NCBI GenBank assembly: GCA_945885545.1 | Contig: CAMCYZ010000012.1 | Span: 1 to 37,382 of the forward strand | Reading direction: 5' to 3' | Length of the DNA: 37,382 nucleotides | Source: Spirosoma fluviale | GTDB lineage: Bacteria; Bacteroidota; Bacteroidia; Cytophagales; Spirosomataceae | Part shown: in pieces, positions 14,448 to 35,134 of the stretch | How the letters are laid out: each line of letters starts with the position of its first letter | How positions within the stretch are numbered: the first letter of the stretch is position 1 | Made by a program: the position numbers and the translations under genes | The notes under the pieces: model-generated | What the model was told of the DNA's origin: nothing | The model's database searches: none | Seen by the model: the letters and a program-made list of their open reading frames with translations, nothing else

Positions 14448-15608
14448 CTACCACACATACTTCCCATCCACGTGCGTATCTTTCCAGCTTTTAGAATTTG
14501 CCGAATCTATCACCGCAGCACAAACTTTCTGTGTTTGAAGTGCCTCCTCAAAAGTCGGAGAGCATTTTGAGCCGTCCTCCAAGCTTTTCAAGAAATCGGC
14601 TACTTGGTGCACAAAACTATGCTCCCAACCTATTCCGCAACCCGGAATCCACCAGTTTTTGATATACGGGTGGTCACCATCCGTAATGTGTATCGACCTC
14701 CAACCTCTGAGATTACTTTCGTCACGGTGATCAAAATATTCCAGACGGTTCATATCATGCAAATCCCACTTCAATGAAGCATCTGCACCATTTACCTCAA
14801 AAGTATAAAGTGCTTTGTGCCCACGAGCGTAACGTGTAGACTCAAAAAGCCCAAGCGAGCCGTTCTCGAAATGACAGTGAAAGAGACATGCATCGTCTAT
14901 TCCTACAGGTTCTACCTTTCCAGTTAACTGATGCATACGTTGTTTTACGAATGTCTCCGTCATGGCAGAAACATCGGTAATACCACCATTCAGCCACATC
15001 GCTGTGTCTATACAGTGAGCCAAAAGGTCGCCCGTTACACCAGAACCTGCAGCACCCACATCCATACGCCAAAGACCTTCGCCACCCTGTGGCAAGTCCT
15101 CGCTGATGGTCCAGTCTTGCAAGAAATTGGCTCTGTAGTGATAAATTTTGCCCAATTTACCTGAGTCAATAATATTTTTAGCGAGCGTTACCGCAGGAAT
15201 TCTTCGGTAATTGTACCAAACAGTAGTTTTTACTCCTGCCTTCTGAATTGCATCCACCATTTGTTGGCCCTCTTCCAAGGTCCTCGCCAAAGGTTTTTCG
15301 CACAAAATCATCTTACCGGCCGCTGCACAAGCCAAGGCAATCTCAAAATGCGAATCATTAGGCGTGCAAATATCCACAGCGTCAATGTCCTCACGGGCCA
15401 CCAAAGCCTTCCAGTCTGTTTCATACGACTCAAAATTCCACTGAGCAGCAAAAGCTTTCACTTTTTCTTCGTTTCTTGAACACACCGCCACCAATTTCGG
15501 CTCATATTGCAGTGCTGGAAAAAAATTATGTATTCTGTTGTAGCCGTTGGCATGAGCCCTGCCCATCAAACCTGTGCCTACCAAACCTATTCTTAGTTGT
15601 TTTTTCAT
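14448..15608 (-). CDS. Gfo/Idh/MocA-family NAD(P)-dependent sugar dehydrogenase
   Basis: The 386-residue cytoplasmic protein has a Rossmann GTGLMG (11-16), the family EKP motif at 104-106 (catalytic Lys105), and [11 protein letters not shown] (193-203) with His198 and Asp201 at the usual catalytic positions. Family members oxidise a ring hydroxyl of sugars, glycosides or inositols, often at C3 or C1. There is no Tat or Sec signal, so it acts in the cytoplasm, unlike the Tat-exported members common in Bacteroidota. It is the last gene of the carbohydrate locus, beside two TIM-barrel isomerases, consistent with an inositol-type or keto-sugar pathway. Confidence 0.93.
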
Positions 15609-15624
15609 ATCTATTTTTTTGTAT

Positions 15625-15670
15625 CACTAAGTTTCTCAACGTTTTACGCAGAGTTCCTCTAAGTTATTTT
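15625..15670 (+). repeat. Intergenic repeat-like element of a second family
   Basis: The string contains CACTAAGTTTCTC, TTTTACGCAGAG and TTCCTCTAAG. From memory, very similar wording occurs between genes in many unrelated bacteria. It fills the gap between two carbohydrate genes. There is no second full copy in this window. Confidence 0.35.
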
Positions 15671-15687
15671 CTTACAAAATCGTTATT

Positions 15688-16719
15688 TTACTCTACCCAA
15701 CCGTGTTGTTTTCTTACCTGAATCATCGCAGCCAAAATATCGTTCCAAGTTTTGGGTTGGGTCATCACATCGTTGGCAAACATACAGCCATCCCAACAAA
15801 TATGCTTGAATGCCTTCGTCAGTTCTCCAGATTCATCTCTCAGCCAAAGACCAGCATCGTGGGCAATGTCTAGTTTACCATTCGGATCTGTAGCCAAGCA
15901 GTGGCGACCAGTTTTATCATGAGAACCCGTTCCGTGAACAGTTCCATCGTTTTGAGCTACATGAAAATCTATTGTCCAAGGACGAAGTGCAGCTGTCAGT
16001 TTTTTAAGTCCTTCCAAGAAAGTCTCTCTATCGCCCCACTGAAAATCTACAGGCAAAACTCTGTCCTCAGGAGCATTATAGCCCAACAAGTACAGTGTAG
16101 TATGCGACATATCTGCTTGAAATCCAAGTAATCCGGGTCTATCTACCATTTCCATGGTTTCGATTACTTTCTTCCAAGAGTGCATACCACCCCAGCAAAT
16201 TTCACCTTCAGCAGCTAAACGCTCGCCATAGTCAGCTGCTACATCACAAGCTTCTCTCCAAGTTTGGGCAATCAGTTTTGTGTTGGCAGCAGGGTCTTTC
16301 GCCCAAGCATCAGGACTCGAGGCAGAGTCAATCCTCACTATTCCGTTTGGCCTTAAACCCATATTTCGGAGTTTTTGACCTATTTCGCAGGATTTTTTTA
16401 CCATTTCTACGAAAGTCTTACGTTCGTCGGCAGTTCCCATGGCTGGGCCTCCCCAAATCGGAGCCACCAAACTTCCGATTTCTAAACCGTGTCTTGAAAC
16501 CTTGTCGGCCAATCTTTTTACGCCATCGTCTGATGTATCGAGGTCGTAATGGGGGTCAAAAAGGCCTAAATCAACGCCGTCAAATTTCACGCCGTCCACT
16601 TCAGCGGCGGCGGTCATTTCTAACATGGTGTCGAGGGCTATTGCAGGCTCCGAATCTGGGCCTTTTCCAACTATGCCTGGCCAGGTGGCATTATGGAGTT
16701 TTGGATAGTTATTTTCCAT
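15688..16719 (-). CDS. Xylose-isomerase-like TIM-barrel protein (sugar isomerase/epimerase family)
   Basis: The 343-residue cytoplasmic protein belongs to the AP_endonuc_2 superfamily. Probable metal ligands are Glu173 in EGEICW, Asp203/His206 in QADMSHT and a His in DFHVAQNDG (about 254). Family reactions include epimerisation, isomerisation, inosose dehydration and, in newer work, elimination from keto-sugars; which applies here is not visible. It sits between the Gfo/Idh dehydrogenase and the cupin, and with two other TIM barrels forms a set of three in this locus. It starts at ATG 16719; repeat copy E lies just upstream. Confidence 0.87.
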
Positions 16720-16759
16720 TTATATTTTTTATTTAAGATTATTCAATAATTTATTTTTA

Positions 16760-16804: not shown

Positions 16805-16859
16805 AAAATCAAGTTTTTAATAGAAAAATACCCCTATCAGAATCAAAAATAAACTAAAT

Positions 16860-16901: not shown

Positions 16902-16906
16902 AATAT

Positions 16907-18109
16907 TCAAAACGATTCTACCACCAAATCAGGGTTTTTCGGCCCAAAATGCTTCAGAATCACAATCGGGTCTGTGCTCGATGGGTTCGAAATTACAACT
17001 CCGTCGTTGGCAGCTTTTTCGGTAATGAAAAACTCGTCGTTGGTCAATTGTCCATAGCGAATCAAGGCCGGAGTTTCGATGTCCCAAACGCCCATTTTGC
17101 CATGCCCTTGCATCACGATACAGCCATAAGCCGCCGAATCTTTAATGGTTACGGTTTGGCCAGGCAACACAGTCAATTCCTTGGCACTAAAGTCTTCAGA
17201 TTTGTAGCAAATCCAATTTTCTATGTATCCTTCGGCTTCCATTTCGCCCACTGCTTTTACTGGTTTAGGAAGCATGAAAAACTTCTCAACAATATTCGGG
17301 TCGGTGTTCAATTCCCAGTCAATTACGCTGACTAGTTCGTCATAATCGCCGATTTTATCTTTCGGTGTTCCTTTCCAAAGCAATTCTTCAGGCACAATAG
17401 CCTCATTTACAAGACTTTGATACATCGCAAAAATATCTGAGGCTTTCTGTGGCTCGTAGGTACATAAGCTACCTGGTGCATGCAATACACCCGGTGGCAC
17501 AAACCAACCTGTGCCCGGCTCGAGACGCTGAGCAGCCGAATAATTCGTAATTTTGTTATCGCCTTTGCTGAAATTCATCAAGCATTCCTTTATCTGCTCT
17601 TTGGTAGTTCCGGGAGTTATTCCAAAGAAAGTGTAAGGAAAATCGCCACCATGGTTGTTCAATTGTGGTGGAAAATAATAGGCCTCTGGTTTGCCATTTT
17701 GACCCACTAATGCTGCTTTTTCGTCGTTATGGTGAATATGATGCGGCAAAGGACCCATGTTATCAAAAAACTTGGAGTACATCGGCCAAGCTTTGAATTC
17801 GTTCCAAAGTCTTTCGCCTATGATTTCGGCACCGACTTCGTCAATGGCATCCTTTAAAGTTATTCTCTCGTTGTTGTAAACCACCATACTGAGTCCTTCA
17901 TTTTCGCCAGTAAGTGGACCGTTTTCGGCTGGTGTTGTTGATGAAAGCCAACGCTCATCTATGCCTCCACGAACGCCTCCAAGCACATAATAATCGTCGG
18001 GATGTAGTTTTATTCTACGACCGGGCACACAAAACGAACGTGGAACCCATGTTGGGGCTAATCTCAATATTCCTTGGCCTTGTTCTAGGGCATTTTTTAT
18101 ACTACTCAT
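16907..18109 (-). CDS. Cupin protein related to class I mannose-6-phosphate isomerase
   Basis: The 400-residue protein has a first cupin with PLPHHIHHNDE (His123, His124, His126, His127 as metal-ligand candidates), the segment GTGWFVPPGVLHAPGSL closing that barrel, and a second cupin-like C-terminal region (LPGQTVTIKDSAAYGCIVMQGHGKMG). This is the layout of mannose-6-phosphate-isomerase-like sugar isomerases, though the match is not close enough to assign manA. It would act in the cytoplasm on a sugar made in this pathway, probably with Zn2+ or Fe2+. The start ATG is unambiguous. A dioxygenase-type cupin is the alternative. Confidence 0.78.
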   Translation of the reverse strand: MSSIKNALEQGQGILRLAPTWVPRSFCVPGRRIKLHPDDYYVLGGVRGGIDERWLSSTTPAENGPLTGENEGLSMVVYNNERITLKDAIDEVGAEIIGERLWNEFKAWPMYSKFFDNMGPLPHHIHHNDEKAALVGQNGKPEAYYFPPQLNNHGGDFPYTFFGITPGTTKEQIKECLMNFSKGDNKITNYSAAQRLEPGTGWFVPPGVLHAPGSLCTYEPQKASDIFAMYQSLVNEAIVPEELLWKGTPKDKIGDYDELVSVIDWELNTDPNIVEKFFMLPKPVKAVGEMEAEGYIENWICYKSEDFSAKELTVLPGQTVTIKDSAAYGCIVMQGHGKMGVWDIETPALIRYGQLTNDEFFITEKAANDGVVISNPSSTDPIVILKHFGPKNPDLVVESF

Positions 18110-18233: not shown

Positions 18234-19262
18234 TCATTTAGTAACCTTCAAAGACACTTCAAACTTTCTTGATTCTTTTGGTTTTAAGAAAATCAATTCT
18301 CCGCTTTCTCTGGCTTGTTTTTGGCCGATGGGCCAATTGGTGCCTGGCTCTAAACCTGTTACATACTCCCCTTCACCGAAATGCTGCCAATTGGTGAGCG
18401 TGGGCAATTGAGTTTTATCAAATTCCATTTCTATACCAAAGTTAAGTTTTGGATTGAATAAGCCACATTTACATTTTCCATTTTTATCAGATTTCGGGAT
18501 TATCAAGGCCACTTCTTCGCCTCCGCCTGCATGACTTTCTAGTGGTGCTGGACAAGTTTTGAAATCATTGCCTTCTTTGAAAATCTTTGGATAATCCCCG
18601 CCAAATCTGGGCTTCCACTCTCCTTCCCAAAGGATTTTTGTACCTTCCTGCACAAATGGATAACCAAAGTTGAAATGATATAAAAGCATCAAGGGAGTTT
18701 CTGTATTTCCGCGATTGATTACTTCGTCTTCAATTTTTATCTCTGCTGAACCCAAATGACATGTAATCTTTCTTCTTAATTCCAGATTTGGACCAAATAT
18801 TTTGGATTCTTTGACGATTCCAGTGATACTCATTTCCATTTGTCCTCTGGCTATATCAGGCTGAATGATCGATTCAATTTCAGCAGGTAAATTACTTATA
18901 TTTCCATGAATTCCTCTTTCACCAAATTCGTCAGATTCTGGTCCGCCAACGTGTTGAAGTCCGCAGGTAGTCAACAAGCCTCCACCAAAAGTTCTCAACC
19001 AATTCAGTCCAATATCTGACAAAGTTTGTGGTGCAGGAATACCACCATGACTTAGCCAAGTGAGGCAATGTTGGTTATAAAAAGCCTCACCGATATCCAT
19101 TCCACGGTCAAAATTCACTTTAAAACGTAAACCAGAGCCTGTATTTATCCAAGCGATACGGTTTCCTCTTCCCACGCCATTATCGAGAACAGAGGTTTCA
19201 ATGCCGCCTATTTGGTGGTGGTTGTTGATATATTTGCTACTATTTTGGAACACGGATGACAC
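18234..19262 (-). CDS. DUF4432 aldose-1-epimerase-like protein
   Basis: The 342-residue protein resembles the DUF4432 branch of galactose mutarotase-like beta sandwiches: ETSVLDNGVGRGNRIAWINT, FKVNFDRGMDIGEAF, WLRTFGGGLLTTCGLQHVGGP and LLYHFNFGYPF. Such proteins bind sugars and may interconvert anomers or epimers; the activity of this branch is poorly known. The only start codon upstream of the conserved core is GTG at 19260-19262, inside dispersed repeat copy G; the next GTG is codon 30, within the conserved region. The N-terminus MSSVFQN is therefore repeat-derived. It lies between the alpha/beta hydrolase and cupin genes in one run of minus-strand genes. Confidence 0.85.
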   Translation of the reverse strand: MSSVFQNSSKYINNHHQIGGIETSVLDNGVGRGNRIAWINTGSGLRFKVNFDRGMDIGEAFYNQHCLTWLSHGGIPAPQTLSDIGLNWLRTFGGGLLTTCGLQHVGGPESDEFGERGIHGNISNLPAEIESIIQPDIARGQMEMSITGIVKESKIFGPNLELRRKITCHLGSAEIKIEDEVINRGNTETPLMLLYHFNFGYPFVQEGTKILWEGEWKPRFGGDYPKIFKEGNDFKTCPAPLESHAGGGEEVALIIPKSDKNGKCKCGLFNPKLNFGIEMEFDKTQLPTLTNWQHFGEGEYVTGLEPGTNWPIGQKQARESGELIFLKPKESRKFEVSLKVTK

Positions 19263-19290
19263 GGATTAAACTGATTTACACTTATTTTTT
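19247..19290 (+). repeat. Dispersed repeat copy G, overlapping the DUF4432 gene start
   Basis: GGAACACGGATGACACGGAT followed by TAAACTGATTTACACTTATT is the cleanest copy. It fills the whole gap between the DUF4432 start and the alpha/beta hydrolase stop, and its reverse strand encodes the GTG start and codons 1-5 of the DUF4432 protein. Confidence 0.85.
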
Positions 19291-20099
19291 TAATTATTTA
19301 ACAACCAACCACTTACCCTTTCATTAAAATCTTCCAAGTTTTCGAAATGGAAAATATGGCCTGCTTTTTCATATAAAAAAAGTTCGGCATTTGGAATGGC
19401 ATTCGTAACTTCCTCGGCCATCCAAACAGGTGTAAAAATATCTTCTTTACCCCCAATGACTAATGTTTTTTGACTTATTTTAGGCAAATCAGCCAAAGCA
19501 TCGTGGTTGATACACGCATGTGCCTGACCCACCAAGCCATGCAAAGGCTGCGGATTTGGGTCAAGATGGGCATTTTTTCTTCCCTCTGCTAAATCCTTGG
19601 CCACTTTTTCATCATCCCAAGATGCCTTAGAATAAATCAAAAGCTGAATATATCTCGAAAATTCTTCAGGATTTAGATGTGCTTTGCAAGCCATAATGTG
19701 CTGAAAAATACCTTTGGCGGTATTGTCGCACCTCGCCCATGGGCACATGAGTACTAAAGAATCCACTTTTTCAGGATGGCGAATGGCTAATTTTTGGGCT
19801 ATTGTGCTACCCATTGAACAGCCTATCACTTTCGCTTTTTTTATGCCTAAATTATCCAAAAGACCAGCATAATCATCCGCCATTTCGTCTGTACAATATG
19901 CTCCAGCGGGTTTATCGGACTTTCCAACTCCTCTGTTGTCACCTACTATACATCTAAAATGCTTCTCGAACTCGGCCAAATGGGGTTCCCAAACAGAACC
20001 CGGTGCCGTAATTCCCATAACTAAGAGTAGCGGTTCAGCGGTCAAATTGCCCCGCTCCTCATAATACATCATTATTCCATTAGTCTCTACAATTGGCAT
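19290..20099 (-). CDS. Alpha/beta hydrolase
   Basis: The 269-residue cytoplasmic protein has a complete triad: Ser95 in GCSMGS, Asp220 in GGKEDIFTP and His248 in KAGHIFHFE, with the oxyanion segment LLVMGITAPGS. It could be an esterase or lactonase; beside a sugar dehydrogenase a lactonase role is attractive but only inferred. It starts 1 nt after the stop of the TIM-barrel gene upstream, so the two are translationally close. Confidence 0.9.
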   Translation of the reverse strand: MPIVETNGIMMYYEERGNLTAEPLLLVMGITAPGSVWEPHLAEFEKHFRCIVGDNRGVGKSDKPAGAYCTDEMADDYAGLLDNLGIKKAKVIGCSMGSTIAQKLAIRHPEKVDSLVLMCPWARCDNTAKGIFQHIMACKAHLNPEEFSRYIQLLIYSKASWDDEKVAKDLAEGRKNAHLDPNPQPLHGLVGQAHACINHDALADLPKISQKTLVIGGKEDIFTPVWMAEEVTNAIPNAELFLYEKAGHIFHFENLEDFNERVSGWLLNN

Positions 20100-20100: not shown

Positions 20101-20964
20101 TTATTTCAAAGCTGGAATTAAGTCATTTTTAATCCAATTACCGTCATGTAATGTCACATAATCAGGATCTTCTAATGCTTCGGGGCCTTCGTCTTCACAA
20201 ATAATCCATCCGCCGTAATTTATATCCTTCAACCATTGGGTGATTCCTACCAAATCCACTTTTCCGTTACCCATGATAGTCCACTCGGGTGTTCCATTCC
20301 AATCTTTATAATGAACGTGATTAATCAGGTGCTGATATTCTTTCATCTTTGCCAAAGGATCCATTTCACCATTGATAATATGGCCTACATCTGGCGTCCA
20401 GCCTGTTACTTTTTCGTTAAGGCTTTCCAAAACTATTCTGTAGTCTTCAGCAGTGCGAATAATAGAACTATGAGGTGAATTTGGATGATAACTACAGGCA
20501 ATTCCTTTATCATGAGCCCTTTGCGAAACTGCATTTACAATATTCACCAATGATTTTTGTCGTGTCTCTAAATCGTGTCGGCCAGTCGGAATTTGAACAG
20601 TATTCAATATGGCTTTCGGGAAATGTTCTAAAAGGGCGATGGCATTATCAGAAATTATTCTTTCCTCGGCAGTTTCTTCTTTGGCATTCCACTCTTGAGC
20701 CAACGCCAGAGCTGCCAATTCAATGCCATTTTCCTGAAGTTTTGCCGCCAAAAGGCCTGGGTCCACCAAGTCGCCCATCCAAGTGAATATGGGCTGAATA
20801 CCCGTAAAACCAGCTTTGGCGATGACTTCTATCATGTGGCCCAATCGGCCTTTGTGGGTTTCGCCATTGCCGGCCATGTACCAAGTGTACACTTCTGAAC
20901 CGAAGCGGAAGAGGAAGTCTTGACTGTGATTTTTATGATTTATGTGATCGTTTTGATTTTGCAT
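20101..20964 (-). CDS. TIM-barrel sugar isomerase/epimerase with inosose-dehydratase-like motifs
   Basis: The 287-residue protein is an AP_endonuc_2-type barrel. Probable metal ligands are His160, Asp192/His195 in PDVGHI, His218 in HVHYKDW and Glu257 in WIICEDE. The closing MGNGKVDLVGITQWLKDINY resembles IolE (2-keto-myo-inositol dehydratase), but the family is too diverse to call iolE. It lies in one block with the alpha/beta hydrolase. The N-terminus (MQNQNDHINHKNHSQ) is polar and probably unstructured. Confidence 0.86.
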   Translation of the reverse strand: MQNQNDHINHKNHSQDFLFRFGSEVYTWYMAGNGETHKGRLGHMIEVIAKAGFTGIQPIFTWMGDLVDPGLLAAKLQENGIELAALALAQEWNAKEETAEERIISDNAIALLEHFPKAILNTVQIPTGRHDLETRQKSLVNIVNAVSQRAHDKGIACSYHPNSPHSSIIRTAEDYRIVLESLNEKVTGWTPDVGHIINGEMDPLAKMKEYQHLINHVHYKDWNGTPEWTIMGNGKVDLVGITQWLKDINYGGWIICEDEGPEALEDPDYVTLHDGNWIKNDLIPALK

Positions 20965-20991: not shown

Positions 20992-21378
20992 TTAAGGTTT
21001 GAATTTTTTATTTTGTAATCTACTAAAATTTAAGCTTCGTTCTCCAAAATTGATTAATAAGCCAATTTCAAGATTATATGCCTCTAAATAATTAATGGCC
21101 TGAGCGTAATGAACGTCTTCTAATTTTATTACCGCCTTTAATTCCACAGAAATTAATCCCTCAACTAAAAAATCAACTCTCCTGGTACCAATATGATGGT
21201 CTCGATAATAAATAGGCATATTGAACTCTCTTTCAAAAGGAATTTTTTCAATCAACATTTCAATTTCCAAAGCTCTCTGATATATCACTTCCTGAAAACC
21301 ATTCCCCAAAGAACTATGAACTTTCATAGCACAACCTATTATTTTACCGGTTAATTCTGAATACTTATAAGCAGTCAC
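20992..21378 (-). CDS. GxxExxY protein (PD-(D/E)XK-like)
   Basis: The 128-residue protein opens with LTGKIIGCAMKVHSSLGNGF and QEVIYQRAL, the GxxExxY family signature, followed by VDFLVEGLISVELKA, a PD-(D/E)XK-type catalytic pattern. The family's role is unknown; a nuclease-like core is the usual guess. It starts with GTG. It is unrelated to the sugar genes on both sides and interrupts them, so it looks like an insertion. Confidence 0.85.
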   Translation of the reverse strand: MTAYKYSELTGKIIGCAMKVHSSLGNGFQEVIYQRALEIEMLIEKIPFEREFNMPIYYRDHHIGTRRVDFLVEGLISVELKAVIKLEDVHYAQAINYLEAYNLEIGLLINFGERSLNFSRLQNKKFKP

Positions 21379-21467: not shown

Positions 21468-22322
21468 TTAAGACAATTGGTGCTTCTCGCACATCATTTT
21501 TATGAATTTATAGCCATTTTCTGCAATATCCCAGGGTGCATTGTATTCTCTCCAAACTCCTATGGCATTTGCAAAATCTGGGTCGTTTCTTGAGAATGCT
21601 TCTATGGTCAAATAGCCAGAATAGCCGATTTTTTTCAATGCTGAGAAGGTATCATCGAATTGAATATGGCCTTCTCCAGGAGTTCCACGGTCGTTTTCAC
21701 TGATATGTACGTGGTGCAAATATGGAGCTATGGTTTCTATAGCATTCCCAAATTTCTTTTCCTCCATATTGGCATGGTGGGTGTCAAACATGGCTCGTAC
21801 ATTTGGATGATTGGTTTCCTTTAAAAGCCTCGCCAACTGCTCCATGGTGTTGCAAAGGTAGCATTCGAAACGATTTAATGCCTCGGGACCGAGAACTATC
21901 CCCGCTTGTTGTGCATAATCTCCTGCCTGATAAAGCACCTCTGCAGCACGTTTATACTCTTCGTCCAAAGCTGGGTGTGCCTCGAAATGATTGTGAGCCG
22001 AATGAATAGGACCACAAAGTAAGGTTCCGCCTAAATCATGGGTCCTATCTATTGCAATCTTTATGGCATCAAGACCAGCAGCTCTTATGGAGGCCGAAGC
22101 ATTGATGGGATTGGTATCTTTCCCTACAACTGTAACCGTGGTAACATCCAATCCAAGATTCTTTGCATGTTGACCTACTTTTTTGCAATTTTCAGACTCC
22201 GCCCCGCCGACAAAAAACTCTACACCGTCGTAGCCGATTTTCTTGATTCTATCCAGTGTGGGAAACAAATCCTCCGTGACATTGGCCGTCCATGCCAATA
22301 CATTAAATCCAATTTTAACCAT
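21468..22322 (-). CDS. TIM-barrel sugar epimerase of the tagatose/psicose-3-epimerase type
   Basis: The 284-residue protein shows the four metal-binding positions of ketose 3-epimerases: Glu147 in LGPEALNRFE, Asp180 in FDTHHANMEE, His206 in HVHISEND and Glu241 in LTIEAFSR. HISENDRGTPGEG is the usual substrate loop. It could epimerise a keto-sugar at C3 or act as a hydroxypyruvate-isomerase-like enzyme. In this locus, beside a DUF1080 protein and a dehydrogenase, a 3-keto-sugar substrate is plausible. No signal peptide, hence cytoplasmic. Confidence 0.88.
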   Translation of the reverse strand: MVKIGFNVLAWTANVTEDLFPTLDRIKKIGYDGVEFFVGGAESENCKKVGQHAKNLGLDVTTVTVVGKDTNPINASASIRAAGLDAIKIAIDRTHDLGGTLLCGPIHSAHNHFEAHPALDEEYKRAAEVLYQAGDYAQQAGIVLGPEALNRFECYLCNTMEQLARLLKETNHPNVRAMFDTHHANMEEKKFGNAIETIAPYLHHVHISENDRGTPGEGHIQFDDTFSALKKIGYSGYLTIEAFSRNDPDFANAIGVWREYNAPWDIAENGYKFIKMMCEKHQLS

Positions 22323-26196: not shown

Positions 26197-27654
26197 CTAT
26201 TCCACTATTGGTTTACCTTCATAATTAATTTTTAAATAAGGCACAGTTTCAGTGTCATCTACTACATAGTTCCACTTTTTTATATATTCTATACCAGGTT
26301 CAAACTTATCCTTCCTCTTTTGTAATTCTGATTTTAATCTTTCTTCCAAATCATTTTGAAGAATTGCGAATTCAGGCTTTCCAACAAGATTATTCATTTG
26401 AAATGGATCCTTTTCATTATCAAAAAGCAACCAAGGCCCATTTAAATCTCTGGTGTAAGTATATTTTCCTGTGTACACTCCACGGTATTCCTTGCCGCCT
26501 CTTTGTCTATCCCATTGGCCAAATGGCTGATAACAAGCAATTAAGGCTTGTGTGACTTTGTCTTTCCTTGTTCCTTTCAAAACGCCAGAAAAATCTAAGC
26601 CTTCTACAGAGTTAGGGATTTTGATTTTGGCAAGTCCTAATAGCGTAGGCATTATATCCGGTGAATTTAGTAATGTAGCGAGCGTTTTAGGTTTTTTCCC
26701 GAGCAATTTTGGATAATGAATTAGAAACGGAACTCGTATGCTTTCCTCATAAGGTTGCTGTTTGTTCCAAGCACCGTGGGCCCCTAAAAGATCTCCGTGG
26801 TCCGAAGAAAATACAATTATTGTGTTCTCATCGATTCCTAAATCTTTCAAAGTCTGCCACATTTTGCCGATACATTCGTCTATTGCAGTAATGTGCGAAT
26901 AATAGCCCAAAAGGTCTTTTTTTACTTTTTCAATTTTATCGGAGGGAACATTTGGATTAACTTCAAAATCCTTATTCTCATACAACTTCCGATATTTTTC
27001 AGGTGCTGACTGATAAGGATCGTGTGGGCTACCAATAGAAATAAACATCAAAAAAGGATTTTCTTGAGCGGCTTGATTTTTCAAATATGCACAAACATCC
27101 TCAGTTTGGGCAATTACATCATAGCCCTCCCAAGTCAATTTCCTCTTGGAATTTCCAACATAATAGTCAGAATTATTATAATTGTGAGTGCATTCTAATG
27201 CTTTCCAATATTGGAACCCTTGTTGGCGAGTGGGAGGAATAAAGCTATTTCTTCCATGCCCATCCAAATGCCATTTGCCAACATATCCCGTATTATAACC
27301 TGCTTTTGAAAATACTTTTGACATAGTTGTGGCATTTGTATCTAACAAAACATCATTCATAAACATGCCGTTGGATAGCGGATATTGGCCCGTCATAAGT
27401 GAGGCCCGATGAGGGGTGCAAACTGCTGTTCCTGAAATAGCATTTTTTAGATTTATACTTTCCGATGCCAATTTATCCAGATTGGGCGTAATGGCATTTT
27501 TGTCGCCTGCGTACCCTAATGCTTGAGCTCGCCATTGATCAACCAAAATGTAGAGTATATTGGGCTTTTTGGTTTCCTGACCAAAAACCATTGTAGTGTT
27601 TATTCCAAAAAAAATAAATAGGATCAAAAAAAATAATTTGTTCTTATCCTTCAT
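26197..27654 (-). CDS. Sulfatase
   Basis: The 485-residue protein has a signal peptide (cleavage near VFGQ, residue 26) and the type I sulfatase core: YILVDQWRAQ (metal ligand Asp39, with Gln40 where many have Asp), Cys79 in CTPHR for formylglycine, GKWHLDGHG and VFSSDHGDLLGAHGAW. It differs from its neighbour in the CxPxR motif, in the DQ pair and in lacking the extra domain, so it likely removes a different sulfate. Stop and next start are contiguous (TAGATG), so the two are co-translated. Confidence 0.94.
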   Translation of the reverse strand: MKDKNKLFFLILFIFFGINTTMVFGQETKKPNILYILVDQWRAQALGYAGDKNAITPNLDKLASESINLKNAISGTAVCTPHRASLMTGQYPLSNGMFMNDVLLDTNATTMSKVFSKAGYNTGYVGKWHLDGHGRNSFIPPTRQQGFQYWKALECTHNYNNSDYYVGNSKRKLTWEGYDVIAQTEDVCAYLKNQAAQENPFLMFISIGSPHDPYQSAPEKYRKLYENKDFEVNPNVPSDKIEKVKKDLLGYYSHITAIDECIGKMWQTLKDLGIDENTIIVFSSDHGDLLGAHGAWNKQQPYEESIRVPFLIHYPKLLGKKPKTLATLLNSPDIMPTLLGLAKIKIPNSVEGLDFSGVLKGTRKDKVTQALIACYQPFGQWDRQRGGKEYRGVYTGKYTYTRDLNGPWLLFDNEKDPFQMNNLVGKPEFAILQNDLEERLKSELQKRKDKFEPGIEYIKKWNYVVDDTETVPYLKINYEGKPIVE

Positions 27655-27724: not shown

Positions 27725-30415
27725 TTATTTCTGTACCTGAGTTTTGAACATCGGGTTTTTAGGATTTCCTGCCGAAATCAAATAGGCCATCAAGTCCTTA
27801 AATTCTTCTTCATTCAGACTGTTGATGAGCCCTTGAAACATCATAGATACGTTCGAGGTTTTGGTTGAGCTTACGTTCTTTTTCAATACTTTCTCCAACG
27901 ATTCTGGAGCATAAGGATTTTGAGACACGTAATACGCCAACTTATCTTCATTTACTAAACGGCCCACTATCGAAGTACCATTTTTTAATGAAAATTGAGT
28001 AGCCGCATATTGATCTGAAATGGTTTTGTCAGGATCCACAATGGCTTCCAAAAGATCTTTTGGTGAAAAACGAGTACCTATCTGAGTCAAATCAGGGCCG
28101 GCAGCTCCTCCTTGACCTAGCATGGTGTGACAACCCTTACATGTTGTTGCCGAAAACATAGCCTTGCCTTGCTCAAAATCTCGGTCAGTTAAACCTTTGT
28201 CTAAAACTGGCGAGCCAGACTCTAGAGTCCATCTTCTTCCGGGCCCTTTTGGATATGCAGAAGAAACCAAATTATTACCATTAGAACTTAAAAGCTCGGC
28301 ACCGGAAAGTTTGTCAAAATATGACCTTTTGTCCTCAGGAACATTTTTTAAGGCCAATTTTCTAGATCTATCAATAAATCCAACGTAACTATTACCTCCT
28401 TTAAATTTGAAGGCGTTATTAAACCACTTGAAATAAGTTTCTCTTTCGGCGTTGGTCCAACCTTTTTTAGCCATTGTCAAAACATTGGCATAATAGGTGT
28501 GTTGCATAGGAGGCAAATTAGCCAATGTGTTGGCTATATCCCCACCGTACTGTGTACTTCTTGCAATCAAATCGTTTGAATTCGTTGCTGTTTTGAGCAT
28601 ATTATCGTTTGCACCTGGCTCGTCTTTTAGTTTCATCAATGCCAAGGTCTTTTGAATAGCTCCTGGGGCATCAAGATATAATAGATTTTTGCTCAACATT
28701 TTATTTAACTCTGCGGTATTTGCCGGATAATTGGGATTCATGAAGGCAATAATTTTTGCTTTATTTGCCTCTGTAGGCATTCCCATTCTCAAAAATGACA
28801 ATTCAAAAGCTCTCAACACATCAATCTTTTGAGATTCGGTTAAAGTTTTGAAATTGATTTTCAACAAAGCATTTATAATTTCATTTTGCTTCTCGCCTTT
28901 GCCCATTCTTATCAATGAAATCAAGGACTGAGTTGAGGCAACGGGGTCTTTTTCTGTCAAAGCCAAGTCTTGCCATTGAGACACGGGTTGGTGTTCCAGA
29001 GCCAATCTTGCCGCGTAACGAATAAACCTATCCGTGCTTTTTAGATGTGGCCATGCTGTTTTAACAGCCTCAGGATTTGGACCACCCGAGTGGAATTTTT
29101 CCAAACTGCGACGTAGAGTATTGGCTTCGTTTATGGGTGTAACGGTCAGGGGTGTTGTAGACTCACTTCCAACATAAGTTACTCTGTATAAGTCAGATTC
29201 CAATCTGCGGCCACCCGTCAAAAAATAAATGGAGCCATCTGGACCAACTACGCCATCGGTAAGAGGCAATGGCAAACCTGAGAGAAACTCAGTACGCTCA
29301 GAAGTATAGGTAGAACCCGAAGGTTTCAAGTGAATGGCGTGCATAATACCAAAGCTCCAGTCAAATGCCAGAAGCGTCCTTTGATATTTGGCAGGAACTT
29401 TTGCATTTTTAAGGTGAATTAAATTCGTTGGAGAGCCCTGTCCAATATTTATTACTGGCGGAAGGTTATCTGGGTAGGTCTGTGACCATTTGCTATTACC
29501 CGTTCTCCAACCAAATTCAGCACCAGATGTAGAATGAGAAACTCTTGTAGGTCTATACCATGGGGTACCAAAATCCCATTCCATGTCGGCATCATACACA
29601 AACAAATCGCCCACTTCGTTGAAATCAAAATCGTATGCATTTCTGTAGCCTGCATTTAGCAATTCCCAATGCTTACCTTCAGGGTCAAGCTGAGCAACCC
29701 AGCCACCAGGTGCCATACGGTCATTTGCATGTCCGCGTGGGTCTTTTATCAATGGAAAAAGCTGATCTTCCTGCCAATTGTTAGGCAAACGATAATGATT
29801 CATAGGCGGTACATCGGTATGGTTTCCAGAAATTACCACTAATGATTTTCCATCGGGAGAAAGTTTAATACTATGCGGGCCATGCTCTCCATCGCCATCC
29901 ATAGGTTTCATGAAAGTCACTTTCTCAAATTGGTCATCGCCATCCATATCTTGCAGGCGATATAGGCCACTTTGTCTTGTGAAGGTTTTATTATTTTTGC
30001 TGTTATTTACCATCACATAAAGACTGTTGAAAGCATATAATAGCCCCTGAGAATAGCCCATGCCCATGGTGTCTGCACCTATACCTGTGCCAATTTTAAG
30101 TTTCTCCACCTCTGGAGTTAAAGATGAGGAACCTATTGCAGGAATTTTTAACCTGAATAACTTTCCATACTGATCAGAGGTTATCAAGCGGCCTTTATCA
30201 TCAAAAGCCATAGCTACCCATGAGCCTTGGTTGTTGGCCGAAGGGCTGTAGATATGTTCGGCAGCGAAACCTTCTGATAATCTCAGTTTCTTGATTTTTG
30301 AATTATCTTCAATGGCGTGTTTGGAGAAGGGATTCTTGGTAATAGTAAATGAAGCCGCTCCTAAAACGGCAACAATAGCCAAGAAGAAAATTAATTTTTT
30401 AAGATTGAATAACAT
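27725..30415 (-). CDS. Propeller/HEAT/cytochrome c protein (membrane-bound sugar-dehydrogenase-like)
   Basis: The 896-residue protein begins with a membrane anchor or signal (residues 8-25). An N-terminal beta-propeller (about 40-430) resembles soluble-glucose/sorbosone dehydrogenases: LITSDQYGKLFRL, DGEHGPHSIKLSPDGKSL and VGPDGSIYFLTGGRR. A helical HEAT-like middle (about 450-680) follows, then a C-terminal cytochrome c with CKGCH near residues 758-762 and GPDLTQIGTRFSP, as in the 'putative heme-binding' proteins of Planctomycetes and Bacteroidota. It may oxidise a sugar in the periplasm using PQQ or pass electrons from such an oxidation; no cofactor site can be proved. It lies between terminators, downstream of susCD. 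Confidence 0.85.
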   Translation of the reverse strand: MLFNLKKLIFFLAIVAVLGAASFTITKNPFSKHAIEDNSKIKKLRLSEGFAAEHIYSPSANNQGSWVAMAFDDKGRLITSDQYGKLFRLKIPAIGSSSLTPEVEKLKIGTGIGADTMGMGYSQGLLYAFNSLYVMVNNSKNNKTFTRQSGLYRLQDMDGDDQFEKVTFMKPMDGDGEHGPHSIKLSPDGKSLVVISGNHTDVPPMNHYRLPNNWQEDQLFPLIKDPRGHANDRMAPGGWVAQLDPEGKHWELLNAGYRNAYDFDFNEVGDLFVYDADMEWDFGTPWYRPTRVSHSTSGAEFGWRTGNSKWSQTYPDNLPPVINIGQGSPTNLIHLKNAKVPAKYQRTLLAFDWSFGIMHAIHLKPSGSTYTSERTEFLSGLPLPLTDGVVGPDGSIYFLTGGRRLESDLYRVTYVGSESTTPLTVTPINEANTLRRSLEKFHSGGPNPEAVKTAWPHLKSTDRFIRYAARLALEHQPVSQWQDLALTEKDPVASTQSLISLIRMGKGEKQNEIINALLKINFKTLTESQKIDVLRAFELSFLRMGMPTEANKAKIIAFMNPNYPANTAELNKMLSKNLLYLDAPGAIQKTLALMKLKDEPGANDNMLKTATNSNDLIARSTQYGGDIANTLANLPPMQHTYYANVLTMAKKGWTNAERETYFKWFNNAFKFKGGNSYVGFIDRSRKLALKNVPEDKRSYFDKLSGAELLSSNGNNLVSSAYPKGPGRRWTLESGSPVLDKGLTDRDFEQGKAMFSATTCKGCHTMLGQGGAAGPDLTQIGTRFSPKDLLEAIVDPDKTISDQYAATQFSLKNGTSIVGRLVNEDKLAYYVSQNPYAPESLEKVLKKNVSSTKTSNVSMMFQGLINSLNEEEFKDLMAYLISAGNPKNPMFKTQVQK

Positions 30416-30496: not shown

Positions 30497-30515
30497 TAAA
30501 TTTTATTAAAATGAA

Positions 30516-32024
30516 TTAAAAATGCGGTGTTAGGGATGACTCTACGTCTGGCAAAGCGTAGAGCAACTGGATATTTGTAAATGCATTGCTCCGGGTAGTG
30601 GCACCTTCAGGATAATAATAATCCAAAGGATTAGCTTTAACTCTATTTCCATAAGCAGTGATAGTCTCAATAGCCTTGCCCGTTCTAACCAAATCTAACC
30701 AGCGTTTGTTTTCAAAGGCTAATTCTGATCTGCGGTCTTGGTAAATTTGGTCTCTTAAGGCAGTTTGAGATGTGGCCGTAGTATTAGCCAAACCAGCTCT
30801 GGTTCTTACTAAATTCAAATTCGCTGCAGCATCTGCAAGTTTATTTTGCTCCATTTGAGCCTCCGCTAAAAATAAAAGTACCTCGGAGTAGCGATAAACT
30901 GGCCAGTTCATACCATGATTATTATGTAAAGAATGAGGTCTTACAAACTTTTTAATATATGGATAAACCTTGTTACTTCTTAAACTTCCGCTAAGTGTTA
31001 CATAACCAACAGAAGCGTCTTTGCGTAAATCACCAGTTTCATAGGCTGCAATTACATCTGGTGTAGGTGTATTGTTTCCTTCACCAGTTAAGGGCTGAGG
31101 GTTAGATGTACCAGCAAGAGGTGTTAATTCTGCCGGACTCATAGGTCGAGAAAGGAAACTATACATAAAATTACCTTGTAAACCATTGGCACCCTCTTGG
31201 TATTGTACCTCAAAAACAGATTCTTTATTGTTTTTATTACCTGAAGTAGTCGTGAAGGCGTCAACATAGCTTGGCATTAAAGAGTAATGCCCACTGGCTA
31301 CTATCTCTTTCAACAATGCCTCTGCTTGTGCCCATTTTTTCTGCACCATATAAACATTAGCCAGAAGCATTTGAGCAGCCCCTTTAGTTGCTCTACCTGG
31401 TTCTTGAGTAGTTTTGGGAAGAAGGCCTGCTATGGCCTCAGTAGCATCTTTTATAATCTGGGCATATAATTGATCACTGGTTGAAAGTGGTTTTGTAGAG
31501 CCCTCTCTATCTTTTACTGGTTCTGTATGCATAGGGACTTTTCCAAACAACTGAACCAATTGAAAATAAGCAAATGCCCTTAAATACTGTGCTTGACCTT
31601 TGATGTTGTTTTTTCGAACTGCATCAAATTGAACTCCATCTATCAATGCAAGAACCTGATTCGCTCTCGCAATTATTTGATAATCTAGTCTATACTGGTT
31701 TAATACGTGAACATTTGCTGTTAGACCTTTAGCTTCTGGCACTGAAAAGTCTGCAATGTCTTCTTGCTGCTCAGTAGCACCAAAAAGGATATTTCGAGAA
31801 TAGTAGGTATTGTCAGAATGCATTTCACACAAAAGCCAATTCCTGTCGTTGTAAATACTCCTTAATGGAACATAAGCACCATTTACAGCCTGCTGAAAGT
31901 CAGCTTCTTTGTTAAAAAATATAGCTGAACTTAGGCTTGTTTCAGGAATTACAGAGAGAAAGTCTTCTTTACAACTTACTAAACCTGTGAATACCAATAA
32001 AACGGTTAATATTATTTTTTTCAT
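30516..32024 (-). CDS. SusD/RagB-family nutrient-binding lipoprotein
   Basis: The 502-residue lipoprotein (LVFTGLVSC, Cys18) has the SusD pattern: SAIFFNKEADFQQAVNGAY near the N-terminus, the TPR-like GQAQYLRAFAYFQLVQLFGKVPM and the C-terminal RYSEVLLFLAEAQ and DRRSELAFENKRWLDLVRTG. It sits on the cell surface and caps the SusC transporter, binding glycan. It starts 23 bp after the susC stop. Confidence 0.96.
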   Translation of the reverse strand: MKKIILTVLLVFTGLVSCKEDFLSVIPETSLSSAIFFNKEADFQQAVNGAYVPLRSIYNDRNWLLCEMHSDNTYYSRNILFGATEQQEDIADFSVPEAKGLTANVHVLNQYRLDYQIIARANQVLALIDGVQFDAVRKNNIKGQAQYLRAFAYFQLVQLFGKVPMHTEPVKDREGSTKPLSTSDQLYAQIIKDATEAIAGLLPKTTQEPGRATKGAAQMLLANVYMVQKKWAQAEALLKEIVASGHYSLMPSYVDAFTTTSGNKNNKESVFEVQYQEGANGLQGNFMYSFLSRPMSPAELTPLAGTSNPQPLTGEGNNTPTPDVIAAYETGDLRKDASVGYVTLSGSLRSNKVYPYIKKFVRPHSLHNNHGMNWPVYRYSEVLLFLAEAQMEQNKLADAAANLNLVRTRAGLANTTATSQTALRDQIYQDRRSELAFENKRWLDLVRTGKAIETITAYGNRVKANPLDYYYPEGATTRSNAFTNIQLLYALPDVESSLTPHF

Positions 32025-32047
32025 TACTATTTCTTTTTTAGGATTAC

Positions 32048-35000
32048 TTAAAAATTCAAATTAACGCCAACAGTGAAAGTACGTGGTACCGGATAGTTTG
32101 AGAGATCAACACCTGGTGATAAATTACCACCATCACCTTGTCCGTTTGACTGAGCACTAGTTTCTGGATTAGGCCCACCCCAATATTTTGTAAACACCAT
32201 AAGCTGTTGAATAGAAGTATAAACTCTTGCAGATTTAAATACCTTGTTTGCTTTAGGTATTGTATATCCTACAGTTACATTTTTTATGGTAAAGAAAGAT
32301 GCATCAGCTACAAAACGGCTGTTCATCCAGTCTCTTTCAATACCAGTAACGTTACCTCCTCCCACGGTAGTACCATACATACCAAGTCCAGGATTTGCTT
32401 CTGACCTAAATCTATTTTTAACTCCTTCTACCATATTAAAAACACCGTCTAAGTTAGCAGTAGAGTAAATATGACGTACTAAAAGTTCATTGCCAAAAGA
32501 ACCTGAACCTACGATATTAGCATCCCAGTTACCATAAGAGAAGTTATTGGTGATACCATAAATAAATTTAGGAAAAGGATTCCCCATAATAACTCTGTCG
32601 TCATTATCACCACCATTTGTTATAATGCCATCTCCATTTTGATCAGTAAGTTTTATGCTTCCCACCGTAGATCGGCCTGGAACTTGTGGAGAATTTTTTA
32701 AATCCTCCGCATTTTGATACATTCCTTGGGAAATATGTCCATAAAATTGACCAAAAGGATAGCCAACTTTTGTAATATGAAAGGTACCATAAACACGGTC
32801 TATACCGTCTGCCAAAGCAATAACTTTATTTCGGTTAAATGAAATGTTGGCATTAGTTCCCCATTTAAATTTACCAATAGTATTTTTTGTATTTAATGCT
32901 ACCTCATGACCCCAAAACCTAATTTCACCTATGTTGTCATTGAAATTAGAAAAACCAGATTCTTGGGCAATTTGCACACTGTAAAGCAGGTTAGAAGTAA
33001 GTTTTCGGTAATAATCATATACTAAAGTAATACGATCGTTTAGTAGACCTAGATCAACACCAAAGTCAAACTGTTTGGTTGTTTCCCAGCCTAAATTTGA
33101 ATTATCTAAAGAAGTTACAACCGAACCCGGAGAAACTGTATTACCAAAAACAGCATTTACTGTATTATTAATTAAAGCATATGAAGTGTAATTACCTATA
33201 TTGTTATTACCGATTATACCATAACTTGCTCTAATTTTTGCAAAGGATATTTTATTACTATTTTTAAGAAAACTCTCGTCTGATAATACCCACCCTGCTG
33301 ATACAGAAGGAAATGTACCCCAACGGTTAGCCGACCCAAAGCGGGAAGACCCATCACGTCTGATAGAGGCTGTCATCAAGTATTTGCCTTTATAATCATA
33401 AGTTAATCTCGATAAAACCGAAGTAAGTGCCCATTCTTGAACTCCAGAATTTGTACCCCCACGGTTTATATTAATAGCACCTTGTACTGTAGGTAAGCGG
33501 TCATCTGCATAAGTATCTGCTTGGAGACGAGTAGACTCTTGTGTAAATTTTTGGTTAGAAAAACCAGCTAAGACTTCAATATTGTGGTTATTAAAACTTT
33601 TAGCATATGTAGCGAGGTTTTCATTTAACCATGTCAGGTTTTCCACATTTTCTCTAATAGATGCTGCTGTAGTGGGAATGGCTACATTTATAGCCGAAGT
33701 GGCCGTAGACGGGTTAAAAAAGAAAAATTTAGATCTAAACAATTCAACATTAAATGTCGATTTTAAAGTTAAATTTTTAATAGGCTTATATTCCAAATAG
33801 CCATTACTAATAAGATTCGTATTAGTAGTTTCATTTACAAGTTCGTTGGCTGCCCTTAACCAGTTTGGATAAGCAAAAATATTACCTGTGCTAGCTGGAA
33901 AGCGGTTAAAAAGTGTTAGTTCTCCTTTGTCATCATATATTGGCATTACCGGCCAGGTATGCAAAGCATTGAATAATATACCTGTACCACGATCACCATC
34001 AGTACGAGGTGTATCATCATAAACAAACTGAGGAGCTACATTAAAGCCAATCTTTACTTTGTCTGAAATGTTGTATTCAGAATTCATCCTAAAAGAATAT
34101 CTAATGTACTCATTATTCAATACCACACCTTTTTGATTAAAAACACCAGCTACAATAGAGGTTCTTGATTTACTAGTATTATTGGACAAACTTAAATTAT
34201 AACTCTGTAATGGGGCTCTTCTTAATAAGGCTCCGTACCAGTCGTTATCTTTGTCACGATAGATTGACGGGTTTTGAAATTCCGCAGGAACAGGCTGTTT
34301 AGCATCTTCATAAAACTCTTTTTTAAACTGGGCAAATTCTTCAGCATTTAACATTTTTACTCTGCCTTTTACAGGAACTTCTTGAATACCAGTAAAGACA
34401 TTGAAACTCACACTTGAACCTGCTTTTCCCTTTTTAGTTGTAATCAAAACCACCCCATTTGCAGCCCTTGAGCCGTATAATGAGGTAGAGGAAGCATCTT
34501 TCAAAATAGATATATCTTCAATTTCATCTGGATTCAAATCTCCAATATTGCCCGTAATTGGAAAACCATCAATAACATAAAGTGGATCGCTACCAGCCGC
34601 AACCGAAAGCTGACCCCTTATCCTGATGTTCATGCCTTCACCAGGCCTACCTGTAGTTTGGTTTATTTGAACTCCCGCCAATTGGCCTTGTAATTTTTGC
34701 CCGATTTGAGATACTGGTATATCTTTAATTTCTCTAGCACCAATGCTTTGAACCGATCCAGTTACCGATTTTTTCAATTGAGAGCCATAACCAACAACCA
34801 CTACCTCGCTCAATAGCTTATCGTCGAGGCCAAGAGAAATATTAATGTTTTTTTGATCAGAAACTAATGCTTCTTTGGTTTCATAACCTACAAAACTGAA
34901 TACCAAAACAGTGTTATTGGCAGCATCAATACTGTAGTTGCCGCCCACATCTGTTTGTGTACCTTTGGTGGTACCTTTAATAGCGACACTTACACCAACT

Positions 35001-35134
35001 AGAGGGTCGCCCGTAGAATCAGTCACCTTGCCTTTGATCTGGGAATACGCAAGTGAAGAACAGAGGAACATCATACCAGTAATTAAACTTAATAGATGAA
35101 AACCCCCACTTCGAAAAGTAATTTTTTGGTTCAT
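32048..35134 (-). CDS. SusC/RagA-family TonB-linked outer-membrane transporter
   Basis: The 1028-residue protein has a signal peptide (to about residue 31, SLAYSQ), a carboxypeptidase-regulatory-like domain (KGKVTDSTGDPLVGVSVAIK, about 33-105), a plug domain with EVVVVGYGS and LYVIDGFPITG ... SLYGSRAANGVVLITTKKG, and a large barrel ending RTFTVGVNLNF. It imports oligosaccharides with SusD, powered by TonB. There is no sigma/anti-sigma or hybrid-sensor gene in the window to regulate it, and I found no -7 box upstream on the minus strand. The specific glycan is unknown. Confidence 0.97.
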   Translation of the reverse strand: MNQKITFRSGGFHLLSLITGMMFLCSSLAYSQIKGKVTDSTGDPLVGVSVAIKGTTKGTQTDVGGNYSIDAANNTVLVFSFVGYETKEALVSDQKNINISLGLDDKLLSEVVVVGYGSQLKKSVTGSVQSIGAREIKDIPVSQIGQKLQGQLAGVQINQTTGRPGEGMNIRIRGQLSVAAGSDPLYVIDGFPITGNIGDLNPDEIEDISILKDASSTSLYGSRAANGVVLITTKKGKAGSSVSFNVFTGIQEVPVKGRVKMLNAEEFAQFKKEFYEDAKQPVPAEFQNPSIYRDKDNDWYGALLRRAPLQSYNLSLSNNTSKSRTSIVAGVFNQKGVVLNNEYIRYSFRMNSEYNISDKVKIGFNVAPQFVYDDTPRTDGDRGTGILFNALHTWPVMPIYDDKGELTLFNRFPASTGNIFAYPNWLRAANELVNETTNTNLISNGYLEYKPIKNLTLKSTFNVELFRSKFFFFNPSTATSAINVAIPTTAASIRENVENLTWLNENLATYAKSFNNHNIEVLAGFSNQKFTQESTRLQADTYADDRLPTVQGAININRGGTNSGVQEWALTSVLSRLTYDYKGKYLMTASIRRDGSSRFGSANRWGTFPSVSAGWVLSDESFLKNSNKISFAKIRASYGIIGNNNIGNYTSYALINNTVNAVFGNTVSPGSVVTSLDNSNLGWETTKQFDFGVDLGLLNDRITLVYDYYRKLTSNLLYSVQIAQESGFSNFNDNIGEIRFWGHEVALNTKNTIGKFKWGTNANISFNRNKVIALADGIDRVYGTFHITKVGYPFGQFYGHISQGMYQNAEDLKNSPQVPGRSTVGSIKLTDQNGDGIITNGGDNDDRVIMGNPFPKFIYGITNNFSYGNWDANIVGSGSFGNELLVRHIYSTANLDGVFNMVEGVKNRFRSEANPGLGMYGTTVGGGNVTGIERDWMNSRFVADASFFTIKNVTVGYTIPKANKVFKSARVYTSIQQLMVFTKYWGGPNPETSAQSNGQGDGGNLSPGVDLSNYPVPRTFTVGVNLNF

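Follow-up and report, generated by a model that had tools for sequence, protein, structure and literature searches.

A widespread Bacteroidota sugar-breakdown gene set with lineage-specific sulfatases in Spirosoma fluviale

Introduction

What kind of substrate is broken down by an operon in which sulfatases stand among genes for sugar oxidation? The question is raised by a contig of Spirosoma fluviale (GenBank assembly GCA_945885545.1, contig CAMCYZ010000012.1; the whole stretch of 37,382 nucleotides is referred to here as the window), in which a single minus-strand run of genes extends from a SusC gene to a Gfo/Idh/MocA (Gfo) dehydrogenase gene (14448 to 35134) with intergenic gaps of 0 to 218 bases. 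The original prediction, made from the letters alone, described the run as a candidate oxidative pathway for a sulfated glycan. We found that its core is a widespread Bacteroidota gene set for sugar breakdown, and that two sulfatases and a GH-A-like enzyme are lineage-specific additions to it. In the reading that we favor, to which we give an even chance, the operon has two parts: the core would degrade a glycoside through oxidized, most likely 3-keto, intermediates, while the accessory part would strip sulfate, probably the 3-O-sulfate of terminal L-rhamnose in an ulvan-like glycan.

Gene content of the run

All open reading frames (ORFs) of the original prediction, together with its outer limits, were recovered at the same positions and on the minus strand throughout. 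Missing from its gene list were a GxxExxY ORF within the run and, on the same strand, a PIN-domain gene plus a sugar ATP-binding cassette (ABC) importer (9399 to 14027). The genes of the run are given below in the order of transcription.

32048..35134, minus strand, SusC/RagA TonB-dependent outer-membrane transporter (TIGR04056, 826 bits, cut-off 368)
30516..32024, minus strand, SusD-like surface glycan-binding lipoprotein (PF07980, 112 bits; PF14322, 98 bits)
27725..30415, minus strand, propeller, helical repeats and cytochrome c, candidate periplasmic sugar dehydrogenase (TIGR02603, 97 bits, cut-off 68; predicted fold)
26197..27654, minus strand, sulfatase 2, motif CTPHR, accessory (PF00884, 196 bits; best PDB match 2qzu, 222 bits)
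24481..26196, minus strand, sulfatase 1, S1_25 type, motif CAASR, C-terminal immunoglobulin (Ig) domain, accessory (PDB 6hr5, 656 bits; Ig_Rha78A_N, 42 bits)
23372..24478, minus strand, GH-A-like secreted enzyme, accessory (PF00150, 22.8 bits)
22383..23153, minus strand, DUF1080 lipoprotein, candidate 3-keto-glycoside hydrolase, core (PF06439, 121 bits, cut-off 26.8; 20-sequence alignment)
21468..22322, minus strand, TIM barrel 3 (TIM3), ketose 3-epimerase-like, semi-core (PF01261, 149 bits; NF051856, 146 of 300 bits)
20992..21378, minus strand, GxxExxY protein, inserted ORF, probably unrelated (TIGR04256, 133 bits, cut-off 35)
20101..20964, minus strand, TIM barrel 2 (TIM2), IolE-like, semi-core (PF01261, 74 bits; TIGR04379, 61 of 290 bits)
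19290..20099, minus strand, alpha/beta hydrolase, PcaD-lactonase-like, semi-core (PF00561, 119 bits; TIGR02427, 128 of 256 bits)
18234..19262, minus strand, DUF4432, aldose-epimerase-like, core (PF14486, 328 bits; PDB 3ty1, 92 bits)
16907..18109, minus strand, metal-cupin-like protein, core (matches no family of Pfam or NCBIfam at 1e-3; conserved across 18 sequences)
15688..16719, minus strand, TIM barrel 1 (TIM1), highly conserved AP_endonuc_2, core (PF01261, 48 bits; 69 to 88% identity over 20 sequences)
14448..15608, minus strand, Gfo/Idh/MocA dehydrogenase, cytoplasmic, levoglucosan-dehydrogenase-like, core (NF052479, 319 of 650 bits)

Family models confirmed the SusCD pair, the DUF1080 and DUF4432 proteins, the alpha/beta hydrolase, the three AP_endonuc_2 barrels, the Gfo/Idh/MocA enzyme (106 bits) and two different sulfatases (PF00884, 163 and 196 bits). 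In the propeller/cytochrome c protein, the heme domain exceeds the TIGR02603 cut-off, and TIGR02604 (65 bits) falls under its cut-off of 122. Two labels are weak by family model: for the GH-A-like protein, PF00150 lies marginally under its cut-off of 23.5, and the phosphomannose-isomerase-like cupin is matched by PDB phosphomannose isomerases only at an E value of 0.34 and over ~60 residues, although it has invariant cupin-like metal residues.

Conservation of the core across Bacteroidota

With the cupin as query, 84,980 species genomes were scanned and at least 585 confirmed relatives obtained, and the best 80 of the 585 loci, which are biased to close relatives, were kept. Unless the best 80 are named, the counts below refer to the 54 of them that are well covered (flanks of 9 kb or more upstream and of 9.5 kb or more downstream); orthologues were called at 40% identity with length filters. 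The cupin and Gfo genes are each present in all 54 loci, DUF1080, DUF4432 and TIM1 each in 53, and the five genes occur together in 51. The propeller-cytochrome is found in 33 loci, and the six-gene set that includes it in 31. TIM3 (27 loci), TIM2 and the hydrolase (25 each) are semi-core, and ABC importer genes accompany the core in 28 to 30 loci. SusC and SusD were counted in 18 and 17 loci, respectively; most loci span only 10 kb per side, so that SusCD is clipped. Of overlapping ORFs the longest was kept, by which the TIM1 frame of locus L174 was lost. The genes of the run were thus found together again in dozens of genomes, a co-occurrence above chance.

In the window's own family, the cupin is encoded by 147 of 200 genomes (133 of 167 good ones), and TIM1 was detected in 16 of 395 genomes drawn across the phylum. 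The 12 loci fetched phylum-wide through TIM1, none of which belongs to the window's family, show that the core reaches other orders of this phylum: the complete six-gene core is present in 5 and five genes in 1 more, while the rest have TIM1 or other gene subsets. A literature search, with subscription papers and supplements largely beyond its reach, found no description of this gene set. The core is therefore a widespread Bacteroidota sugar-breakdown gene set for which we found no published description.

Ten loci of the Sphingobacteriaceae/Cyclobacteriaceae type (L022, L025, L056, L065, L071, L072, L075, L076, L079, and L082) have DUF1501 upstream of the core, and several of them also PSCyt2/PSD1, which together make a planctomycete-style set. 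Downstream of the core in the Cyclobacteriaceae loci L064, L078, L084, and L056 are genes for a dehydroquinate-synthase-like protein, a type I phosphodiesterase and unknown 303-residue proteins, an arrangement reminiscent of the ebo cluster. A search of plasmids gave no match for TIM1 and a single record for the cupin, an Arthrobacter relative of 35% identity in an unrelated polyol-type cluster (L113). This relative adjoins a ribose-type ABC cassette and genes of the dihydroxyacetone kinase, RpiB, and TPI-like types, and the plasmid cluster is perhaps a polyol pathway.

The sulfatases and the GH-A-like enzyme are additions

A pathway dedicated to a sulfated glycan, as originally proposed, was not borne out, most of the core loci examined having no sulfatase match. 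Among the best 80 loci, either window sulfatase is matched in 3 (L009, L010, and L011), which are all close to the window's genus, and the GH-A enzyme in none. SusD, cytochrome and DUF1080 are seen together in 19 of these 80 loci, none of which carries a sulfatase; the core by itself is therefore no pathway for sulfated glycans. Ten genomes were compared around the operon, namely the congeners G022, G084, G117, G093, and G061, and also G034, G021, G183, G063, and G031. Both sulfatases occupy the same slot in G022, G084, and G117; G093 and G061, two of the five congeners with the operon, have neither, their operon being otherwise equal. G034 and G021, which belong to other genera, possess sulfatase 2 without sulfatase 1, and no sulfatase was found in the stretch examined of G063 and G031. 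The core operon has thus received its sulfatases and GH-A enzyme as lineage-specific additions.

Both translations contain the type I sulfatase maturation motif C-x-[PA]-x-R (CAASR in sulfatase 1 and CTPHR in sulfatase 2). The window's genome has four matches to FGE-type sulfatase maturation proteins, while the anSME type gave 20 bits, under its cut-off. The best PDB match of sulfatase 1 is 6hr5, annotated as "alpha-L-rhamnosidase/sulfatase (GH78)" (E value of 4e-196; the next entry scores 176 bits), which we take to be P36 of Formosa. Sulfatase 1 is the sulfatase half of such an S1_25-rhamnosidase fusion: the window protein stops at 571 residues, past the Ig domain, and lacks the GH78 catalytic domain. 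The G084 and G117 versions likewise stop after the Ig domain. In G022 the same slot encodes a 1182-residue sulfatase-GH78 rhamnosidase fusion followed by a GH88/GH105-type enzyme, and the complete S1_25-GH78 fusion is seen in loci L120 and L145.

The ulvan locus of Formosa agariphila includes P36, the GH105 enzyme P33 and the dehydratase P29. In the accessible part of the Formosa study, P36 is an S1_25-GH78 fusion, of which S1_25 takes the 3-sulfate off the nonreducing Rha3S of ulvan trisaccharides, after which the GH78 part takes off rhamnose (PMC8511951). The window shares with that locus an S1_25-type sulfatase with a GH78-type Ig domain, and its congener G022 the full fusion and a GH105-type enzyme. 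It differs in that the fusion stops after the Ig domain, GH105 was not found in the genome, and the setting is a different, oxidative operon.

Homologues of the GH-A enzyme occur in 44 of 200 family genomes and in none of the nine other congeners. The 12 of their neighborhoods that were fetched include SusCD, S1_25-GH78, sulfatase, GH-A, DUF4861, heparinase-like and GH105 genes in one case, SusCD, GH-A, GH105 and lyase-like genes in a second, and SusCD, a GH106 rhamnosidase and GH-A in a third. Because of the S1_25-GH78 remnant, the congener fusion with its GH105-type neighbor and these GH-A neighborhoods, we regard the accessory genes as parts of a locus of the ulvan type. These sequence matches point to an ulvan-like glycan with 3-sulfated rhamnose as the probable sulfated substrate. 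The substrate, originally described as open, is accordingly less so for the sulfated part. A complete ulvan locus in the window's strain was considered and ruled out: PF07470 (GH88/GH105) had no match in the genome, which is 92.9% complete (the control was detected in 3 of 14), and GH78 is only partial.

The uptake pair has been exchanged as well. Window SusC and SusD are 80 to 81% identical to those of G022 and G084, 69 to 70% to those of G093 and G061, and 77 to 78% to those of two Emticicia loci, while identity over the six-gene core is 93 to 95% for G084, G093, and G061 and 90% for G022. In the SusCD tree G093 and G061 are separated from the others (100/100), and in the core tree they fall inside the genus (100/100), so these sulfatase-free congeners have also changed their uptake pair. 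The SusCD pair is not specific to the sulfated substrate, because Emticicia has the window-type pair without sulfatases. The type of SusCD as a marker for sulfatases therefore proved only partly right, G093 and G061 having changed both and Emticicia contradicting it.

A candidate dehydrogenase for the oxidation step

The protein encoded at 27725 to 30415 consists of a propeller (residues ~40 to 415), helical repeats (~430 to 703) and a C-terminal cytochrome c with CxxCH at 759 to 763. In an AlphaFold2 model (mean predicted local distance difference test score of 77), the best fold match of the propeller is the pyrroloquinoline quinone (PQQ) sugar dehydrogenase 3a9g (Z = 29.3, root mean square deviation of 2.8, 301 aligned residues). 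PQQ aldose sugar dehydrogenases score Z = 27.6 to 29.3, AA12 pyranose dehydrogenases ~25 (6i1q, 25.4) and unrelated propellers 22 to 24, with which Foldseek agrees. In a sequence search no match of the propeller was found, only the cytochrome and helical-repeat parts being matched. H178 and R258-N259 are invariant in 23 sequences and resemble catalytic and PQQ-contacting residues of glucose dehydrogenase. The window protein is predicted to share the six-bladed-type propeller fold with the PQQ and AA12 dehydrogenases, but adds helical repeats and cytochrome c, has no sequence-level match to them and is uncertain in its PQQ residues. With a sugar-dehydrogenase fold in the predicted structure, cytochrome-linked sugar oxidation by this protein is plausible, and the oxidative pathway of the original prediction is a fair reading.

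A Gfo enzyme with a Tat signal, and hence exported, lies nearby in 13 of the 21 loci without the cytochrome and in 1 of the 33 with it (Fisher p = 2e-6), the association coming from one genus only, Dyadobacter. Neither SusCD nor the cytochrome lies within 10 kb there, and all 13 cytochrome-free loci carry the exported Gfo, which is related to the glycoside 3-dehydrogenase BT_2158 (146 of 750 bits).

In the window's own genome, a different exported 3-dehydrogenase is possible because GMC-like genes, recognized by eye, lie on another contig. That region (G000 contig C2, L185, 7609 to 17294) contains RhaI- and RhaD-type genes, two GMC-like oxidoreductase ORFs, one short and one full, and a further sulfatase.

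DUF1080 and the cytoplasmic enzymes

The DUF1080 protein has a lipobox-like N terminus by eye, consistent with export. The window Gfo has no signal peptide by eye; its nearest model is levoglucosan 3-dehydrogenase, with a score below the LgdA equivalog cut-off, and PDB 6a3f matches it at 257 bits. Its catalytic-type residues EKP (104 to 106), D194, and H198 are invariant in 17 sequences. TIM1 keeps acidic and histidine residues suited to a metal site, and E147, D180, H206, and E241 of TIM3 are invariant in 11 sequences. The cupin has H124, H126, E142, and H210 invariant in 18 sequences, which we take to be a cupin-like metal set. Searches of PDB sequences gave no useful match for TIM1 or the cupin.

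In Mongoliibacter (2 loci), which also has a rhamnose isomerase match (489 of 647 bits), the core is followed by L-rhamnose genes; in two metagenome-assembled genome loci and in G021 such genes come after the ABC genes. Rhamnose as the core substrate was considered and not adopted, RhaD-type genes in 4 of the best 80 loci and in G021 being too few.

As far as the accessible parts of the sources go, the combination of DUF1080, Gfo and TIM barrels noted in the original prediction fits known 3-keto-glycoside chemistry (PMC9007349, PMC7676230, PMC10628242). DUF1080 works in lactose and trehalose 3-keto pathways, and periplasmic cleavage is proposed for the Caulobacter one (PMC9007349); TIM barrels and Gfo enzymes carry out oxidation, elimination, hydration and reduction for levoglucosan and O-glycosides (PMC7676230, PMC10628242). 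Like Bacteroides BT2156-2160 and Caulobacter lacABC with CCNA_01705, as far as these are described in the part consulted (PMC9007349), the window combines a DUF1080 lipoprotein with Gfo and TIM-barrel enzymes. It has no GMC-type LacABC or exported Gfo, but a propeller-cytochrome c instead, and adds the cupin, DUF4432, SusCD and the ABC importer. With the levoglucosan LgdA-B1-B2-C and the Agrobacterium GlycDH/AtOGE/AtHYD operons, in what we saw of their descriptions, it shares Gfo, PF01261 barrels and a sugar ABC cassette; it has one Gfo rather than two, and adds SusCD, the cytochrome, DUF1080 and the cupin. The window route would thus work like the described 3-keto pathways, yet differs in its dehydrogenases, the BT_2158/BT_2159 and LgdA models staying under their cut-offs.

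Proposed route and alternatives

Whereas gene content, conservation, the truncated S1_25-GH78 fusion and the propeller fold were observed, we infer the reactions of the route below, where the oxidation takes place and how the steps follow one another. SusCD would bring the glycoside into the periplasm. Desulfation, an optional step, would be carried out by the accessory part before or alongside the action of the core. The propeller-cytochrome, or another exported dehydrogenase, would oxidize a ring hydroxyl to give a 3-keto glycoside in the periplasm, and the DUF1080 lipoprotein would cleave the activated 3-keto-glycosidic bond. The released sugar would be taken up by the ABC importer and interconverted in the cytoplasm by DUF4432, the cupin and the TIM barrels, and the Gfo enzyme would use NAD(P)H to reduce the keto sugar to an ordinary one. 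A more specific version is possible, though rather doubtful: an undescribed, widespread Bacteroidota route in which the quinoprotein-like propeller-cytochrome c, rather than a GMC enzyme or an exported Gfo, makes periplasmic 3-keto glycosides for DUF1080, the cupin, TIM barrels and Gfo recover the keto sugar, and ulvan-type sulfatases of the window's lineage feed desulfated rhamnose glycans in.

Several observations weigh against the two-part, 3-keto reading. The other PQQ contacts of glucose dehydrogenase are probably not kept in the propeller, and pqqC matched none of 61 family genomes, a search whose control was likewise blank. The cytochrome is missing within 10 kb in 21 of the 54 loci, although one of these, the clipped locus L011, carries the cytochrome farther upstream. 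The 3-dehydrogenase models of BT_2158 and BT_2159 give the window Gfo 33 to 34 bits (cut-offs of 750 and 650), and none of the window's genes encodes an exported dehydrogenase of the known 3-keto types. In a fold search, the TIM1 model matched AtHYD (8ro4) at Z = 21.8, tied with epimerases and isomerases (21.2 to 22.9), which does not discriminate among enzymes. RhaD lies near the core in only 4 of the best 80 loci. As to the accessory part, the sulfatase that lies 3 kb upstream of DUF1080 in G183 is a different one (28% identity), 9 of 12 GH-A neighborhoods gave no matches in the gene searches beyond those to SusC or DUF1080, and the window's strain, with its partial GH78 and no GH88/GH105, could not complete ulvan degradation by the Formosa route.

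The main rival, which we consider unlikely, is oxidation at C1: the propeller-cytochrome would oxidize the sugar at that position, the hydrolase would open the lactone, and the TIM barrels would process the sugar acid. The nearest propeller folds are indeed C1-oxidizing dehydrogenases, enol-lactonase models are the nearest ones for the hydrolase (128 of 256 bits), and locus L173 continues from a TIM1-TIM3-TIM2-hydrolase set into genes for a GntP permease and an IlvD/EDD dehydratase. However, the hydrolase is missing in 29 of the 54 loci, the window contains no sugar-acid dehydratase, and DUF1080, present in all but one locus, would be left unexplained.

Less probable again is an anhydrosugar or cyclitol pathway, in which Gfo and the TIM barrels would act on levoglucosan-like or inositol substrates imported intact. 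Gfo scores 319 bits with the levoglucosan dehydrogenase model and 116 with that of IolG, TIM2 scores 61 with that of IolE, and levoglucosan operons, in the portion of their description available, likewise carry ABC cassettes; these scores are far under the cut-offs (650, 355, and 290), and SusCD and DUF1080 indicate a glycoside.

A dedicated sulfated-glycan pathway with the sulfatases integral to the core is improbable: both lie inside the run with gaps of 0 to 70 bases, FGE-type maturation proteins are encoded (4 matches), and the far diverged SusCD of the sulfatase-free G093 and G061, next to cores of 93 to 95% identity, implies that pair and sulfatases were exchanged together there, but sulfatases are absent from all 19 SusD-cytochrome-DUF1080 loci among the best 80, and Emticicia keeps a window-type SusCD (77 to 78%) without sulfatases.

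If the 3-keto route that we favor is true, environmental Bacteroidota would possess nonhydrolytic sugar breakdown as an ordinary trait, and the propeller-cytochrome would represent a novel type of entry oxidase coupled to respiration. The operon also indicates that an ulvan-type sulfatase set can be plugged into a preexisting catabolic operon, which cautions against assigning substrates from accessory genes.

Neighboring genes

The GxxExxY ORF separates two TIM barrels of the operon and occurs in none of the 14 other genomes or loci compared. Beginning 420 bases past the Gfo gene and extending to 9399, the following genes continue on the same strand.

13602..14027, minus strand, PIN-domain protein, probably unrelated (PF13470, 50 bits)
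12104..13597, minus strand, sugar ABC importer ATPase (PF00005, 193 bits)
11176..12117, minus strand, sugar ABC importer permease (PF02653, 168 bits; ribose permease model, 306 of 398 bits)
9399..10316, minus strand, sugar ABC importer binding protein (PF13407, 212 bits; RbsB model, 190 of 337 bits)

The PIN gene, which sits between the Gfo and ABC genes, is present in four of the five congeners. Rfam and tRNA scans of the window gave no match. Divergent from SusC, on the plus strand (35983 to 37380), are a gene for an MbnP-family copper-binding protein (PF20243, 196 bits) and then one for an MbnH/MauG-type di-heme enzyme that crosses the edge of the window.

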